Assembly (NCBI GenBank): GCA_030527115.1
Contig: JAUNBM010000019.1
Location: 1 to 36,635 of the forward strand
Origin: Clostridia bacterium
GTDB lineage: Bacteria > Bacillota > Clostridia > Christensenellales > CAG-138
DNA: 36,635 nt
Direction of reading: 5' to 3'
Both the position numbers and the translations under genes were made by a program. The notes below the pieces were generated by a model. The model was not told the origin of the DNA, made no database searches, and worked only from the letters and a program-made list of their open reading frames with translations. Shown in pieces: positions 12,057-18,523 of this stretch (its first letter is position 1; the number at the start of each line of letters is the position of its first letter).

Positions 12057-13565
12057 ATGAAGAAGCGCAAAAAAACGGAGTCGCTAAGCCCCTTCGACCT
12101 CTTTCGCCAATCGCTGAGCGAAGGCGAAAGGGCGGCGCTTTGCGCTTTCTTTAACGAGTTTGATACGCACTGCCTGCTTCCGAGGAGCGAGAAGGAGCGG
12201 CTTAAAACGGATTTTGAAAGCGCCCTGCTCCGGTACAAGGAGCTGAACGTTGACCTTCAAACCGCCGTGGAGCGGCTCGATATTGCAAATCTCGGCGGCT
12301 TCTATTCGCGCCCGCCTATCCTCTGGTACGCCTTGGACGATGCGGCGAAGATATATCCGCTGTCGATGCGGCGCGGACAGATGGCGGTATTCCGGTTGTC
12401 GGTTTATTTTTATGAGGACGTAGTGCCGGAGCTTTTGCAGATGGCGCTGACCTTTACGATGAAACGGTTTCCGAGCTTTGCAACCACGGTGAAGCGCGGG
12501 TTCTTTTGGCACTACTTGGACACTTCAAAAAGGCGCTTTGCAATCGAGCCGGACAGCGGGCTCCCCTGCCGTGCGCTGAAAATTGCCCGGAGCGGGTCGC
12601 AGTCCTTCCGGGTGATGTACTATAAAAACCGGGTCAGCGTCGAGTTTTTCCATATCCTGACCGACGGTGTGGGCGGCATGATATTTCTCAAAACGCTTGC
12701 CGCAGAGTATCTTCGGCTATGCGGCTATCCGGCTTCCCCCGCTGAAGGCGTGCTGGACGTTGGCGGACAACCCACGCCGGAGGAGGCCGAAAACGGCTTT
12801 AAGTTCTCGGAGCGAACCTATAAGGCTTCGGGCTTTGTGGACAGGCCCGCTCTGCAAATGAGCGGAAAGCTGTCGCGCTCAAAGCCCTACCGGGTTTTGC
12901 ATTTTAAGATGGACGCCGAGCGGCTCAAAAGCGCCGCTAAGGGCATGAACGCCACCGTAACCGCCTACGTTTTGGCTCAGATCTTTCTTGCCGGACGCTT
13001 TGCAACCGACGAGTTGAACGGGGATATGAATATTCAGGTTCCGGTTAATATGCGAAAGTTCTATCCCTCCCAAACGCTCCGCAACTTCTCGCTGTATTGC
13101 GGCGTCCGCCTGCCGGTTCAGGATATAACTTCGGCGGCGGAGATAGTCCCGGAGATTGCGCGCCAGCTTTCGCAAAAGGCGACGAAGGACGCGATGAGCG
13201 AGATGATGAAGGGGGCGCAGGGGCTGGTTAATGCGGTTCGCTATGTGCCGCTGTTTATCAAAGCCCCGATTGCGAGGCTGGTATACGGCTTCCTCGGAGA
13301 TAAGATTTTCAGCACCACTTTGTCCAACCTGGGCGTGGTGAATATGCCCGAGGAGCTTGCCGGGCACATAGAGAGCATGGATTTCACCCTCGGAACGGCG
13401 CTCTCCAACCGGGCGAGCTGTTCCATGGTGACGTATGGGAACATAGCCACCCTGTCCATCGCAAAGATGACCGCCGATCCCTCCTTCGAGGAGCGGCTGT
13501 TCGAGCTGTTGGCAAAGGATGGGGTGGAAGCCGAAGTGGAAGGGAGCGCGCCCGATGAAAGTTAA
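12057..13565 (+). CDS. Condensation / alcohol-acyltransferase-like protein
   Basis: A 502-residue protein with the fold signature of CoA-dependent acyltransferases (NRPS condensation domains, WS/DGAT and alcohol acetyltransferases). The active-site motif appears as H199-xxx-D203-G204 in FHILTDGVGG, and the C-terminal half has the family's NMRKFYPSQTLRNF region. Such enzymes move an acyl group from a thioester to an alcohol or amine. It follows murC by 4 bp and overlaps the next gene, a membrane protein, by 11 bp. The neighbouring CDP-alcohol phosphatidyltransferase suggests acylation of a lipid or lipid-linked alcohol, but this is inference. The N-terminal 90 residues are charged and helical. 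Only a weak ribosome binding site is seen. Confidence 0.7.
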   Translation: MKKRKKTESLSPFDLFRQSLSEGERAALCAFFNEFDTHCLLPRSEKERLKTDFESALLRYKELNVDLQTAVERLDIANLGGFYSRPPILWYALDDAAKIYPLSMRRGQMAVFRLSVYFYEDVVPELLQMALTFTMKRFPSFATTVKRGFFWHYLDTSKRRFAIEPDSGLPCRALKIARSGSQSFRVMYYKNRVSVEFFHILTDGVGGMIFLKTLAAEYLRLCGYPASPAEGVLDVGGQPTPEEAENGFKFSERTYKASGFVDRPALQMSGKLSRSKPYRVLHFKMDAERLKSAAKGMNATVTAYVLAQIFLAGRFATDELNGDMNIQVPVNMRKFYPSQTLRNFSLYCGVRLPVQDITSAAEIVPEIARQLSQKATKDAMSEMMKGAQGLVNAVRYVPLFIKAPIARLVYGFLGDKIFSTTLSNLGVVNMPEELAGHIESMDFTLGTALSNRASCSMVTYGNIATLSIAKMTADPSFEERLFELLAKDGVEAEVEGSAPDES

Positions 13566-14130
13566 GCTCAGCTACCCCCTGCCCGAGAAAAGAACTCAGC
13601 ATTGGAACCGGCTCGTATCGGCGCTGAACTGGGCGTTTCTGTTTACCGCCTATATCTGCCCGATAGTCAATCTGACTACCGGAGGCAAGGCATGGAGCGT
13701 GGTTGTGCTGTGGTCTTTGTGGATTCTCCGCTCCAATGTCGTTGCGCCCGCGCTGGTGGAATATAACCGCATCAGTCAGTTCATCAAATTCATCGTTCAC
13801 GCCTGCGTTCTGCTCATCCTTATCGACGTGTTTTTATCGCCGGGCTGGGCGGTTGAGGTGGTTCCAATCGTCTGCTTTTCGGGGCTGATTATCGCGGGCT
13901 TCCTGTTCTTTACGAATCTTCAGCGGCAGAAGCAGAATATGTTTCCAATGCTGGGGCTGATTGCCGTGTCCCTGGGCTGTACCATCGTCGGGCTGATAGT
14001 ATGGCGCGAGGAAAGGCTCTGGTCGCTGGTCGTCATGGGCGCGCTCGCGTTTGCCTTGCTTGCGGGTTGCGTTTGCGTCCTCGGCTTGGACTTCCTCCGC
14101 GAGCTGAAAAAGCGGTTTCATGTCAAATAA
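13555..14130 (+). CDS. Small multi-pass membrane protein (DUF6320-like)
   Basis: A 191-residue protein with about five or six membrane segments (about 23-43, 47-65, 78-97, 100-120, 130-150, 155-177) and a basic C-terminal tail. It resembles the membrane part of DUF6320 proteins, which often sit beside acyltransferase-like genes in Clostridia, but lacks the N-terminal zinc-ribbon many of them have; the assignment is tentative. The start is set at ATG 13555, with AAGGGAG a few bases upstream, inside the end of the preceding gene. It overlaps both neighbours by 11 bp, so the three products are likely translated together and may form a membrane complex. Confidence 0.65.
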   Translation: MKVKLSYPLPEKRTQHWNRLVSALNWAFLFTAYICPIVNLTTGGKAWSVVVLWSLWILRSNVVAPALVEYNRISQFIKFIVHACVLLILIDVFLSPGWAVEVVPIVCFSGLIIAGFLFFTNLQRQKQNMFPMLGLIAVSLGCTIVGLIVWREERLWSLVVMGALAFALLAGCVCVLGLDFLRELKKRFHVK

Positions 14131-14680
14131 AGCGGGCAAAGCGCCCCTCAATCTTGCCGACCTGATTACGCTGAGCCGCATAATTGCCGCCCTCGGCCTG
14201 TTGCTCCTCCCCCCGTTTGGCATCGCGTTCCAATGCTGTTATGCCTTTTGCGGCGTCAGCGACGTTTTGGACGGCTTCGTGGCGCGGCGATTGAAGGTGG
14301 CGGGCGAGAGGGGAGCGAAGCTCGACGGAGCGGCGGACACGGTTTTCTTCCTCATAATACTGGCGCTTTCGATAAGATACTTAGAAATCCCGACTTGGGC
14401 TTGGGGCTTGGCGGGGGCTGTTCTGCTCATAAAGGTTGCGGGCGGCGTCGCGGGGCTTATCAAGTTTCGAGCGCTCCCCTTTTTGCATACGCATCTGAAC
14501 AAGGCGGCGGGGGTTGCGGTCTTTCTGTTCTTGCCCCTGTACCGGCTTGCGGGCGCGGCGGGCGCGCTGATTCCCGTGCTTTTAGTCGCCCTGCTTGCCG
14601 CAACGGAGGAGCTGTTGCTGGTTTTAAGAGCCGGGGAGTTGAACCGCGAGCAGGCGGGGATTTTCCGCATTAAGCCTTGA
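14120..14680 (+). CDS. CDP-alcohol phosphatidyltransferase family protein
   Basis: A 186-residue integral membrane enzyme with a complete CDP-alcohol phosphotransferase signature: D48-xx-D51-G52-xx-A55-R56-x8-G65-xxx-D69-xxx-D73. These residues bind the metal ions and the CDP-linked substrate. About six hydrophobic segments match family topology. Members transfer a phosphatidyl or similar group from a CDP-linked donor to an alcohol such as glycerol phosphate, inositol or serine; the acceptor cannot be read from sequence. It is the last gene of the murC run, and its stop codon lies inside the -35 box of the next promoter. No clear ribosome binding site is seen, so translation is probably coupled to the gene before. 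Confidence 0.85.
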   Translation: MSNKAGKAPLNLADLITLSRIIAALGLLLLPPFGIAFQCCYAFCGVSDVLDGFVARRLKVAGERGAKLDGAADTVFFLIILALSIRYLEIPTWAWGLAGAVLLIKVAGGVAGLIKFRALPFLHTHLNKAAGVAVFLFLPLYRLAGAAGALIPVLLVALLAATEELLLVLRAGELNREQAGIFRIKP

Positions 14681-14705
14681 CTAAGCGGGCGGGGGCAGGT
14701 ATAAT
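14677..14705 (+). promoter_or_regulatory. Strong sigma-A-type promoter of the DUF1538-PII operon
   Basis: TTGACT (14677-14682), a 17-bp spacer and a perfect TATAAT (14700-14705). The -35 box overlaps the stop codon of the preceding gene. The leader to the proposed start at 14801 is about 90 nt and includes an ATTCTT/AAGAAT inverted repeat. Confidence 0.8.
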
Positions 14706-14800
14706 ATATATGTAGAGATTTGCGGACATTTCCTGACGAACGGGATAGAGCGATTCTTTGTACCAGACTCTTTGAAGAATGATAGAAAGAAGGTGCCCTT

Positions 14801-16324
14801 ATCAACAAAAGCGAGTATATTAAAAAACGCGCCCTGCTGGCGGAGAAGATCAAGGAGGCTGCCGTATCGGTAGTCCCGATTATTGCAATTGTAGTTATCC
14901 TGTGCCTGTCCATCACCCCCGTCCCCACCGACTTGCTCCTGTCGTTTTTGATAGGCTCCGTTATGGTTGTAGTCGGCATGGGGCTGTTTTCGATAGGCGC
15001 GGAGACCTCGATGACTCCGATAGGAACGAGAATCGGCTCCGCCCTTACCAAATCGCGCAAGCTGTGGCTCATTCTCCTCGTAAGCTGTATTCTTGGAATA
15101 GTAATCACGATAGCCGAGCCCGATCTTCAGGTGCTGGCGACTACCGCTCCGCATATCAACAGCACCGTTTTGCTATTGACCGTGAGCGTCGGCGTGGGGC
15201 TGATGCTGGCGGTCTGTATGTGGCGCATACTGGCGGGAGTGCGGCTTAGAAACCTGCTTATCATTCTGTATGCGGTTGCCTTTATCCTCGCTTTTTTCTC
15301 CGATAAGAGCTTTTTGAGCATAGCGTTCGACTCCGGCGGGGTAACGACCGGGCCGATGACGGTTCCCTTCATCCTCGCGCTCGGCATGGGCGTTTCCCAT
15401 ATCCGAAGCGACAAGAAAGCCGCCGCCGACAGCTTTGGACTGGTTGCGCTCTGCTCCATCGGGCCCATCATCTCCGTGCTTATCCTCGGCCTCTTTTATA
15501 AGGGCGACGGCGCATCGGCTCAAATATCCACCGTCTCGTGGGGCAACACGGCGGAGATAGGCGCTTCCTATATAGGCGCGATTCCGCATTACCTGTCGGA
15601 GATGGCGGTAGCGCTTGCCCCGCTCGCCGTAATCTTCCTGCTGTTTCAGGTTTTCTCGTTTAAGCTTGCCCGGCGGCCGTTTTTAAAGATACTTCTCGGC
15701 TTTTTGTTCACCTATGCCGGCCTGGTGCTGTTTTTAACCGGGGTCAACGTCGGCTTCTCCGCGCTCGGAACGGTTCTCGGCGCGGGGCTTTCGCAGGGCT
15801 GGCAAAAGTATATTCTCATTCCGCTGGCGATGGTTTTGGGCTGGTTTATAATCTCCGCCGAGCCGGCGGTATACGTCCTTGAAAAACAGATTGAGGAGGT
15901 AAGCGCCGGCGCGATTCCGGGCAAGGCGATAAAGCTGAGCCTTTCGATAGCCATCGCTGTTGCGATGGGGCTTTCCATGCTCCGCGTGCTAACCGGCGTG
16001 TCAATACTCTGGTTTTTAATCCCCGGCTATGCGATAGCGCTGTTGCTCACGCTGTTCGTGCCGGATATCTTCACCGCGATAGCCTTCGACTCCGGCGGCG
16101 TGGCTTCGGGGCCTATGACCGCCACGTTCATGTTGCAGTTTGCGCTGGGAGCGAGCGTGGCGCTCGGCGGCGAACCGGTTACCGACGCTTTCGGGCTGGT
16201 AGCCATGGTTGCGATGATGCCGCTTATCACGATACAGGCGATGGGCTTTATCTACGGCAGGAAGAAGGAACTCGAAGAAAAACCTGTCTACGGCGACCTC
16301 GATATCGTCGAGCTTTGGGGGTGA
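14801..16324 (+). CDS. DUF1538 family membrane protein, apparent ATC start
   Basis: A polytopic membrane protein of the DUF1538 family, built as two related halves. Each half carries the conserved block AFDSGGVxxGPMT (about residues 175-187 and 428-440) flanked by hydrophobic helices. It is probably a permease with unknown substrate. The reading frame is open from 14786, and the coding character (charged N-terminus NKSEYIKKR, then a first membrane helix) starts well before the first TTG at 14933. The only start that fits the ribosome binding site (GAAAGAAGG at 14785-14793) is ATC at 14801, giving 507 residues. No ATG, GTG or TTG exists in frame between 14786 and 14932. If TTG 14933 is used, the protein is 463 residues and loses most of the first helix. 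A PII-like gene follows 4 bp after the stop. Confidence 0.82.
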   Translation: MNKSEYIKKRALLAEKIKEAAVSVVPIIAIVVILCLSITPVPTDLLLSFLIGSVMVVVGMGLFSIGAETSMTPIGTRIGSALTKSRKLWLILLVSCILGIVITIAEPDLQVLATTAPHINSTVLLLTVSVGVGLMLAVCMWRILAGVRLRNLLIILYAVAFILAFFSDKSFLSIAFDSGGVTTGPMTVPFILALGMGVSHIRSDKKAAADSFGLVALCSIGPIISVLILGLFYKGDGASAQISTVSWGNTAEIGASYIGAIPHYLSEMAVALAPLAVIFLLFQVFSFKLARRPFLKILLGFLFTYAGLVLFLTGVNVGFSALGTVLGAGLSQGWQKYILIPLAMVLGWFIISAEPAVYVLEKQIEEVSAGAIPGKAIKLSLSIAIAVAMGLSMLRVLTGVSILWFLIPGYAIALLLTLFVPDIFTAIAFDSGGVASGPMTATFMLQFALGASVALGGEPVTDAFGLVAMVAMMPLITIQAMGFIYGRKKELEEKPVYGDLDIVELWG

Positions 16325-16328
16325 GACA

Positions 16329-17003
16329 ATGAACCTTGTGATCTCGATTATCAACCCGAACGGAGTTTCAACGCTCAGCGACATTCTCCAAAAGCTCAAG
16401 CTTCCGCTGATGCTGACGCTGATGGGCCACGGAACGGCAACCAAGGGGATGCTGGAGCTTTTGGGCATGGACTCCAAGGAGCGGCGCGTGGTTTTAACCG
16501 CCGCCGACACGGAAAAAACCCGCGAGCTGATTCAGGCTCAGCGCAGAAGGCTCTATATAGACGCGCCGGGGAACGGAATTTTGTTAGCGGTACCGATTAA
16601 AAGCGCAGGAGGAGGCAAAACGATGGAAATGCTCAGCGAAGGTCAGGTGGTAAAGCAACCGCCCGTATTCAATCCGGATTATGAGCTTGTGCTCGCCATA
16701 GCCAACGAGGGCTGTAACGAGCAGGTTATGGACGCCGCCAGGGAGGCGGGAGCCCGGGGCGGCACGGTTTTGCACGCCAAGGGCACCGGCGCGAAAAAGG
16801 CGGCAAAGTTCTTCAAGGTATCCATAGCGCAGGAGAAGGAGATAGTTTTGATCGTCGCCGCCTCCGACAAGAAGTCCGATATAATGAAAGCCATATTGGA
16901 AAAGGCGGGGCCCGGCACGGAGGCGGGGGCAATAGCTTTCTCGCTTCCGGTGAGCGAGGTGGTGGGCTTCGCCACGATGAATGTGGAAAAGGATACGGAT
17001 TGA
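16329..17003 (+). CDS. Tandem PII-like signalling protein
   Basis: A 224-residue cytoplasmic protein made of two PII/GlnB-like domains (about 1-100 and 112-218). The second is closer to the family, with GARGGTVLHAKGTG, FFKVSIAQEKEIVLIV and FSLPVSEVVG. The first keeps the same order of elements (HGTATKG, LGMDSKERRVVLT, APGNGILLAVPI) but is more diverged. PII proteins bind nucleotides and small molecules at subunit clefts and control transporters or enzymes; the standard one is a trimer of single domains. A two-domain chain could form a pseudo-hexameric or mixed ring. It sits 4 bp after the DUF1538 gene with GGGGTGAG as ribosome binding site, so it probably gates that membrane protein, by analogy with AmtB-GlnK. 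Confidence 0.82.
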   Translation: MNLVISIINPNGVSTLSDILQKLKLPLMLTLMGHGTATKGMLELLGMDSKERRVVLTAADTEKTRELIQAQRRRLYIDAPGNGILLAVPIKSAGGGKTMEMLSEGQVVKQPPVFNPDYELVLAIANEGCNEQVMDAAREAGARGGTVLHAKGTGAKKAAKFFKVSIAQEKEIVLIVAASDKKSDIMKAILEKAGPGTEAGAIAFSLPVSEVVGFATMNVEKDTD

Positions 17004-17012
17004 GCTTTTTAG

Positions 17013-17078
17013 CGGAGGGTTAAAAAACCTCCGATTAAAGCTTCTTCGCCGCAGATAGAACTCTGCGGCTTTTATTTT
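17013..17078 (+). terminator. Double hairpin terminator after the PII-like gene
   Basis: The main hairpin is GCCGCAGA (17048-17055) with TCTGCGGC (17062-17069) followed by TTTTATTTT, a strong intrinsic terminator that overlaps the last codons of trkH on the other strand. A smaller CGGAGG/CCTCCG hairpin (17013-17033) precedes it. Confidence 0.85.
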
Positions 17079-18523
17079 GCGTGTTTACGCCAGACTGCAG
17101 GGGAGAACAGGAGCAACACCGGGAAAAATTCCAGCCTGCCCAGCAACATATCGAAGGACAGCACCAGCTTGCTCAGCGGCGAAAACACCGAATAGTTGCC
17201 GACCGGGCCGATAACGTCGAGCCCCGGGCCGATGTTGTTGACGCAGGCGAGAACGCCGGAGATGGAGGTGTCCATGCTGTGATTGTCCAGCGATACTATG
17301 AGCAGGGAGGCGCAAACCGAAAGGAAGTACGCCATGGAGAACCAATGGACTGAGGCGAGGTTCTCCCGGTCGATCCGCTTTCCGTCGAGGGTAATCACCT
17401 TGACGGCGTTCGGATGGATGAGCTTTTTCATGCCGTAACGGAACGATTTAAACAGCACCAGCAGTCTCGATATCTTGAAGCCGCCTCCGGTCGAGCCTGC
17501 GCAGGCGCCGATAACCATGAGGACGAGCAACAGCATACGGGATAATTCGGGCCAGAGGTTGAAGTCCACGGTTGCAAAGCCCGTCGTTGTCATTATCGAG
17601 ACCACCTGAAAGTAGCCGTGATGGAGCGCGTCAAAGAAGGAGGGGAAGGATTTTAGCGTGTTGAGGGTTACTATAAGGGTAGCTGCCAATATCAGGCAGA
17701 GATAGGTACGAAGCTCCTCGTTCTTCCAAACCCGCTTGAGCTGACCCAGCAGAACCAGGTAGTATATCGAAAAGTTCACGCCGAACAGCATCATAAAGAT
17801 GGCGACGACGGTTTGACAATAGTGGCTGTAGGACGCCATGGAGGAATTGAGAACCGAAAAGCCGCCCGTTCCCGCCGTGCCGAAGGCGGTGGTAACAGCG
17901 TCGAACAGCGGCATCCCGCCCGCGAGCAAAAGCAGGGTTTGCAACACGGTTAGAGCGACATATATGAGGTAAAGAATGCCCACGCTCTGCTTGAGTTTTG
18001 GGGTGAGCTTTCCGGTGTCCGGGCCGGGGCTCTCCGCCTTTAAAAGATGCAGGGTGCTTCCGCCGCCCGACAGGGGGAGAACGGCGAGCAAAAAGACTAA
18101 AACGCCCATGCCGCCGAGCCAATGGGTAAAGCTCCGCCAATACAAAAGCCCCATCGACAGAGCCTCAACATCCTTTAAGATGGTGGCTCCGGTCGTGGTA
18201 AAGCCCGACACGGTTTCAAACCACGCGTCGAGCAGCGAGGGGATCTCCCGTGAAATATAGAAGGGAAGCGCGCCGAAAAACGAGAGCAGAATCCACGAGA
18301 GCGCAACGATTATAAAGCCCTCGCGGGCGAAGATGCGCCGGTCGCGCGAGGTTTTTATGTGCAGAAGCAACGAGATAGCCGCCAGCAGGATTATCGCGAC
18401 GGCAAACCCGCGTACCGCGCTCCATTCGCTCTTTAAGAGCGAAAGCAGAAGCGCCGGAAGCATGAACAGGGCTTCGATGCGGAGGATATGACCGAGAAAG
18501 AAGCGTATGGCTCGATAATTCAT
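17072..18523 (-). CDS. trkH: TrkH family potassium uptake membrane protein
   Basis: A 483-residue potassium channel-like subunit. The four pore repeats of the TrkH/KtrB fold can be seen through their selectivity segments: SGFTTTGAT (about 106), GTAGTGGF (about 215), TTTGFATVDF (about 311) and NNIGPGLD (about 434). A long series of membrane helices surrounds them. It forms the K+ pathway and works with a cytoplasmic TrkA ring. It starts 3 bp after trkA ends, with AGGGA from the trkA end as ribosome binding site, so the pair is one operon. The length is the usual for TrkH. Confidence 0.93.
   Translation of the reverse strand: MNYRAIRFFLGHILRIEALFMLPALLLSLLKSEWSAVRGFAVAIILLAAISLLLHIKTSRDRRIFAREGFIIVALSWILLSFFGALPFYISREIPSLLDAWFETVSGFTTTGATILKDVEALSMGLLYWRSFTHWLGGMGVLVFLLAVLPLSGGGSTLHLLKAESPGPDTGKLTPKLKQSVGILYLIYVALTVLQTLLLLAGGMPLFDAVTTAFGTAGTGGFSVLNSSMASYSHYCQTVVAIFMMLFGVNFSIYYLVLLGQLKRVWKNEELRTYLCLILAATLIVTLNTLKSFPSFFDALHHGYFQVVSIMTTTGFATVDFNLWPELSRMLLLVLMVIGACAGSTGGGFKISRLLVLFKSFRYGMKKLIHPNAVKVITLDGKRIDRENLASVHWFSMAYFLSVCASLLIVSLDNHSMDTSISGVLACVNNIGPGLDVIGPVGNYSVFSPLSKLVLSFDMLLGRLEFFPVLLLFSPAVWRKHAK

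Follow-up and report, generated by a model that had tools for sequence, protein, structure and literature searches.

Does a PII-like signalling protein encoded directly behind a DUF1538 membrane protein control that protein, and what would be transported under its control? This question is raised by a stretch of 36,635 nucleotides from a Clostridia bacterium (assembly GCA_030527115.1, contig JAUNBM010000019.1; hereafter the window, meaning the whole stretch). Here a gene for an UmpA-UmpB-like DUF1538 protein of two fused repeats (14801..16324, + strand, from a proposed ATC start) is followed by a gene on the same strand for a tandem PII-like protein of 224 amino acids (16329..17003), the stop codon ending at 16324 and the ATG at 16329 leaving a gap of 4 bp. 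A preliminary description of this DNA had placed these two genes, 4 bp apart, behind one strong promoter, and our searches agreed: PF07556 matched the first product in two stretches (E = 2.2e-138, 458.9 bits against a gathering score of 22.6), PF00543 matched residues 120-212 of the second (E = 2.4e-11, 44.3 bits against a cut-off of 25), and a sigma-70-type promoter, TTGACT-17-TATAAT (14677..14705, +), fits the consensus at 11/12 positions, as a consensus match only.

The DUF1538 gene and the PII-like gene form a strongly conserved unit. PF07556 searches of 299 genomes of the phylum, 148 of the class and 149 of another phylum, sampled around a Breznakiella genome, found the family in 101, 49 and 27 genomes, respectively. 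Regions were taken from the phylum and class samples (140, a part of the listed matches) and from the second, spirochaete phylum (20), and PII-like domains were detected with home-made profiles. Overall, 240 of 245 loci had a PII-like gene next to DUF1538, namely 138/141 phylum and class loci (window included), 78/80 named loci, 20/20 spirochaete-phylum loci and 4/4 plasmid records, although these loci are partly non-independent, since L181 and L205, and likewise L268 and L298, look like the same sequence. Five loci gave no PII-like gene. In four (L165, L190, L202 and L242) the sequence runs out at or close to a contig edge soon after DUF1538, whereas L098 truly lacks the partner at this place, a PII-like match being present elsewhere in its genome (G218), on a different contig. 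All 238 downstream PII-like genes were on the strand of their DUF1538 neighbour, at a median of 17 nucleotides from the DUF1538 stop to the start of the PII model, and in L168 and L171 a separate PII gene lies upstream. Public annotation names the neighbour a 'P-II family nitrogen regulator' in Chelativorans, Methylocystis, Vescimonas and Peptoclostridium.

Across the 299 phylum genomes, a profile of the tandem protein (A2), built from loci chosen for their proximity to DUF1538, likewise matched 101, so that 100 genomes had both families, 197 had neither, and each family occurred alone once (DUF1538 in G056; a PII-like match of only 54 residues in G049). The resulting phi was 0.985 (Fisher p = 4e-78, a value that ignores shared ancestry). 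Lack of conserved co-occurrence had been proposed as one observation that would refute a functional pair; what we found, in loci, in genomes and in natural fusions of the two proteins, was the opposite. No third gene family recurred beside the pair, the largest flanking clusters lying on both sides and on both strands, and none of 93 pattern matches in viral contigs encodes a relative.

DUF1538-DUF1538-PII units were also observed on alphaproteobacterial plasmids (L281 and L282): on a conjugative plasmid of Chelativorans the first DUF1538 gene is truncated, and on a mobilizable plasmid of Methylocystis the unit is flanked by IS66 and IS4 transposase genes.

Because the pair is so faithfully co-inherited, the PII-like sensor probably switches the transporter. 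We give a probability of about 0.6 to the reading that the two genes are an operon for a regulated cation/proton antiporter with a dedicated PII-like gate, a reading in which we infer the contact, the direction of control, the ligand and the antiport. In such a system, the DUF1538 protein would consist of two homologous seven-transmembrane repeats in opposite orientation within one chain, as in UmpA-UmpB, with the acids of the motifs A-E-P and F-D-S-G-G, at helix breaks, as candidate ion or proton sites in each repeat. The tandem PII-like protein would be located on the cytoplasmic face, close to the C-terminal end of the transporter, whose activity it would gate in response to a small molecule; an adenine nucleotide, of the sort that PII-like proteins commonly bind, is the probable ligand. 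A PII-like protein gating an adjacent transporter is a kind of system already known from AmtB-GlnK, in which a PII protein is encoded with, and acts on, a membrane protein, and from SbtA-SbtB, and the gating proposed here would be akin to both.

The predicted architecture of the DUF1538 protein is consistent with the first part of this model. Its AlphaFold2 (AF2) model (predicted local distance difference test, pLDDT, 88.2; predicted template modelling score, pTM, 0.87) has a helix list of two similar halves, which correspond to the repeats D1 (14879..15496, +) and D2 (15626..16252, +), and the modelled helices break at A-E-P (residues 104-105 and 352-353) and near F-D-S-G-G (174-178 and 427-431). 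E104, E352, D175 and D428 were invariant in 63 sequences, and across 20 diverse sequences each was kept in at least 90% or in all; all four are candidate ion or proton sites. Charge bias was calculated from lysine plus arginine counts in alternate loops, whose boundaries were set after seeing the charge profile whose alternation they follow; domains of fewer than 200 model positions and duplicates were left out. This bias was positive in 179/179 fused D1 domains (mean +9.3) and negative in 179/179 fused D2 domains (mean -7.1), while in separate-gene pairs it was positive in 31/31 first genes (mean +4.6) and negative in 30/31 second genes (mean -6.3), with one at zero. Because homologous halves carry opposite biases, we read them as inverted repeats of seven crossings each with opposite positive-inside patterns, D1 being predicted as N-in/C-out and D2 as N-out/C-in from helices and charge bias. 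Single-domain members (n = 14) were near neutral (mean 0.86, range -6 to 8; 10 positive and 4 negative), which makes them candidates for dual topology, and the family as a whole reads as an inverted-repeat family of singletons, pairs and fusions. By analogy, a precedent is the UPF0016 cation/Ca2+ exchangers, one family that includes single-domain proteins, adjacent pairs and fused two-domain antiparallel proteins; it differs in its 3-transmembrane units and unrelated sequence, and no PII-like partner is mentioned in the abstract of that paper (PMC4067407).

The preliminary description had regarded the substrate as not known, a statement that is not supported, because antiport has been reported for a member of the family. 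UmpAB of Halomonas zhaodongensis, a DUF1538 pair, is reported as a Na+(Li+,K+)/H+ antiporter whose subunits, each predicted to have seven transmembrane segments, in agreement with the seven crossings per half found here, must act as a heterodimer (PMC5484666). Like the window protein it has two DUF1538 domains, but these are encoded by two genes rather than one fused gene and are distant in sequence. UmpAB was cloned on a 4.2-kb fragment on which ORF1-4 are listed, umpB being the last; regulation was never examined there because the clone ended before any downstream gene, and the text contains 'PII' and 'P-II' 0 times and mentions no PII-like gene (PMC5484666). Cation/proton transport is, by this analogy, the most likely activity of the window protein, the UmpAB experiment being its only experimental support.

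The preliminary description had also distinguished two PII-like domains, the first diverged, in the partner protein, of which one may sense a ligand and the other may dock on the membrane protein; both domains were recovered. P1 (16329..16637, +) has no Pfam match and scores 55 bits with the family hidden Markov model (HMM) built here, against 105 bits for P2 (16680..16967, +), on which the sole PF00543 match of the protein lies. The AF2 model (pLDDT 86.1, pTM 0.81) contains two ferredoxin-like domains, and both show the PII-type double beta-alpha-beta fold. CPII is a carboxysome-linked PII protein associated with ADP and bicarbonate; that of Thiomonas intermedia is the nearest structural match to P1 (residues 1-103 against PDB chain 5ds7_C, Z 10.8, root-mean-square deviation (rmsd) 2.3 over 89 aligned residues), but it is a single-domain protein with no transporter of the DUF1538 family. 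P2 matched PII, SbtB and CutA chains at Z 8.4-9.3, and because unrelated chains reached 8.8, these matches speak for the fold only, PF00543 giving the family. PF00543 was found at E 0.01 or better in 75/76 aligned homologues, and the motifs G-G-T, G-R-G-T-G, E-K-E and G-I-x-F are kept in P2 and in the single-domain proteins (PII domains of fewer than 80 positions were left out of the charge and motif comparison). The window protein has no cysteine after residue 130, and thus no counterpart of the C-terminal CGPxGC hairpin of SbtB. It is the sole PF00543 match in its own genome (94.5% complete), in which no match to Amt (PF00909) was found either. That genome carries a SpoIIP gene, yet no second PII match and no Amt match.

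Several results weigh against a PII-gated antiporter. The ligand residues of the GlnB/GlnK-type sensors of ATP and 2-oxoglutarate, R38-Q39 at the T-loop base and K90 in the B-loop, have no counterpart in P1, P2 or the single-domain consensus when aligned with Escherichia coli GlnB, and for this reason canonical 2-oxoglutarate sensing is unlikely. The window protein scored 163.4 of 490 and 149.3 of 500 with NF041627 and NF041628, the NCBIfam equivalog models that exist for UmpA and UmpB; these scores lie far below the cut-offs, so any transfer of the UmpAB function to the clostridial protein is distant. The UmpAB phenotype in E. coli was obtained with no need for a neighbouring PII-like gene. 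Weighted mutual information, calculated over 161 loci (effective number of sequences, Neff, 108), likewise gave no sign of coevolution between the partners: the top 100 pairs comprised 9 with cytoplasmic loops and 19 with periplasmic loops, and P2 columns dominated.

If the PII-like protein does dock on the transporter, the foremost candidate site is the DUF1538 C-terminus, because a clade-specific tail motif and the natural fusions occur at the same place. The predicted cytoplasmic tail (16277..16321, +) is probably flexible, given low model confidence (pLDDT <50 at residues 493-500 and 502-505), and a motif like D-x-[IV]-[IV]-E-L-(W), a pattern written after the tails had been inspected, occurs in 102/166 distinct loci, which make up one clade. 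Its presence coincided with a diverged P1 (p = 4e-13, uncorrected, 171 loci). Repeated co-evolution of the two was rejected, since independent contrasts on a tree of 166 loci gave r = 0.09 (sign-flip p = 0.87), and the association is therefore that of one clade. Duplicates and short domains had been dropped to reach 166 loci for the tree and 161 for mutual information.

That the pair is a PII-gated transporter of some other substrate, such as a metabolite or an anion, to which the Halomonas result does not transfer, we consider rather unlikely. The missed NCBIfam cut-offs agree with it, as does the structure comparison, in which Foldseek against the PDB gave no match to the DUF1538 model at E 0.001 or better (a new fold is not thereby shown) and a VIA search gave at best Z 5.1 (rmsd 25), with no significant match to a transporter of known substrate. 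Against it stand the conserved acids at the helix breaks and the Na+(Li+,K+)/H+ antiport reported in the sole experiment found for this family.

The numbers of domains bear on a different question, whether the PII-like protein is a switch at all. An architecture census of 144 clusters from the phylum and class sample, leaving out DUF1538 matches under 25 bits, comprised 13 with a single DUF1538 and one PII-like domain, 9 with separate DUF1538 pairs and one PII-like domain plus two double units (L091 and L099), 14 + 7 with separate pairs and a fused or separate double PII, and 78 + 5 with fused DUF1538 and double PII, the further cases being a tandem duplication (L089) and frame-split or fragmentary genes (L113 and L163). 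Whole single-domain transporters thus had one PII-like domain and fused ones two or more; where both the stretch and the fused DUF1538 protein were complete, a PII-like neighbour never had just one. The apparent exceptions lie at contig edges (DUF1538 cut in L064 and L154, PII cut in L173), have a long tail with PII-like domains counted apart (L162) or DUF1538 fragments (L065 and L084), or are L098. Three PII-like domains follow fused DUF1538 in one chain in the spirochaete-phylum sample (L310, L311, L313, L314, L315 and L316), possibly as a covalent counterpart of the PII trimer, and the C-terminus of DUF1538 itself carries a fused PII-like domain in L168, L171 and L188. The PF07556 search lists a single match for the genomes of 9/13 singletons, so these nine must act alone or as homo-oligomers.

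This correspondence, the fusions and the lack of conservation of canonical PII ligand residues would all suit PII-like domains that serve the assembly or stability of a DUF1538 complex as structural subunits, with stoichiometry explaining copy number and fusions. We nevertheless regard such a role as unlikely, since G-x-G-T-G, E-K-E and K-P-G-x-G-I-A-F are kept at the ligand-binding loops of PII proteins, and since in E. coli a fragment with no listed PII-like gene sufficed for UmpAB to assemble. A bolder form of the gated-antiporter reading, which we hold only tentatively, is that DUF1538 is an antiporter family derived from dual-topology ancestors, whose PII-like regulator underwent duplication and fusion in parallel with the transporter, singletons having one such domain, pairs one or two and fused proteins two or three, such that each cytoplasmic face would be watched by its own PII-like domain in a two-faced nucleotide gate.

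It is quite improbable that the ligand is cyclic di-AMP (c-di-AMP), linking the antiporter to the K+ and osmotic network of that nucleotide. The genome has a match to a diadenylate cyclase domain, and the PII-like proteins PstA/DarA bind c-di-AMP (PMC6516651). Pfam assigns the window protein to PF00543 and to no c-di-AMP receptor family. PF06153, the PstA/DarA family, had no match at E 1 or better, and the pair occurs also in alphaproteobacteria, in most of which c-di-AMP is not known to occur. Although classical PII proteins have many soluble targets, mere co-transcription of a PII-like protein that acts elsewhere is very improbable, as the protein is absent, with one exception, where DUF1538 is absent, and is naturally fused to it in some loci.

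Comparison with the known systems sets the proposed gated antiporter apart. GlnK is a canonical ATP/2-oxoglutarate PII protein with a long T-loop that acts on the ammonium transporter AmtB, whereas the window genome has no Amt match. SbtB is, like the window protein, a PII-like protein dedicated to a transporter, described as a valve plug on SbtA that responds to adenyl nucleotides; it differs as a single-domain trimer with a redox CGPxGC hairpin, which acts on an unrelated bicarbonate transporter of cyanobacteria (PMC13249358). A parallel with CrcB-DUF190 found no support when looked for. Among open-licence papers we found no report of a DUF1538-PII link, of tandem or triple PII chains and fusions in such a pair, or of the inverted-repeat evidence. 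About one third of the sampled phylum genomes (101/299) carry DUF1538, 100 of them with a PII-like partner; if the switch is real, it would be a widespread, unstudied way of linking the balance of sodium, potassium and protons with the energy or metabolite state of the cell. The single-domain, split, fused and DUF1538-PII forms also offer a system for the joint evolution of inverted-repeat transporters and their regulators.

The start of the DUF1538 gene is unusual. In its frame, which opens at 14786, the first ATG, GTG or TTG stands at 14933, already within the protein and past the first membrane helix; because of this, and because a Shine-Dalgarno-like AAGAAGG (14787..14793, +) lies 7 nucleotides upstream, the best-placed ATC at 14801 is the likely start codon. 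In a survey of 276 frames, 15 were flagged, of which 10 had a canonical start nearer the domain and five had none (the window, L201, L202, L147 and L099, the last maybe frameshifted). Non-canonical starts in relatives were ATT (L201), ATC (L202) and ATA (L147), and L203 probably uses ATA, though a later TTG is also present. Rare start codons on one membrane gene may indicate deliberately weak or regulated initiation.

Around the pair, the promoter overlaps the stop codon of an upstream CDP-alcohol phosphatidyltransferase gene, and a terminator-like hairpin (17048..17069, +; 8 pairs, 6 GC, T-rich tail) also serves the convergent trkH end. The ion-balance theme that the preliminary description drew from trkA-trkH is local only: among 244 other loci, TrkH relatives accompany the pair in 2 and TrkA in 1. 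An RNA element search of 14000-17200 gave nothing at gathering score. The upstream run at 12057-14680, not seen complete near other DUF1538 loci, encodes a 502-amino-acid protein with acyltransferase-like matches, all sub-threshold, a DUF6320 membrane protein and the CDP-alcohol phosphatidyltransferase, and looks like a small lipid-modification operon.

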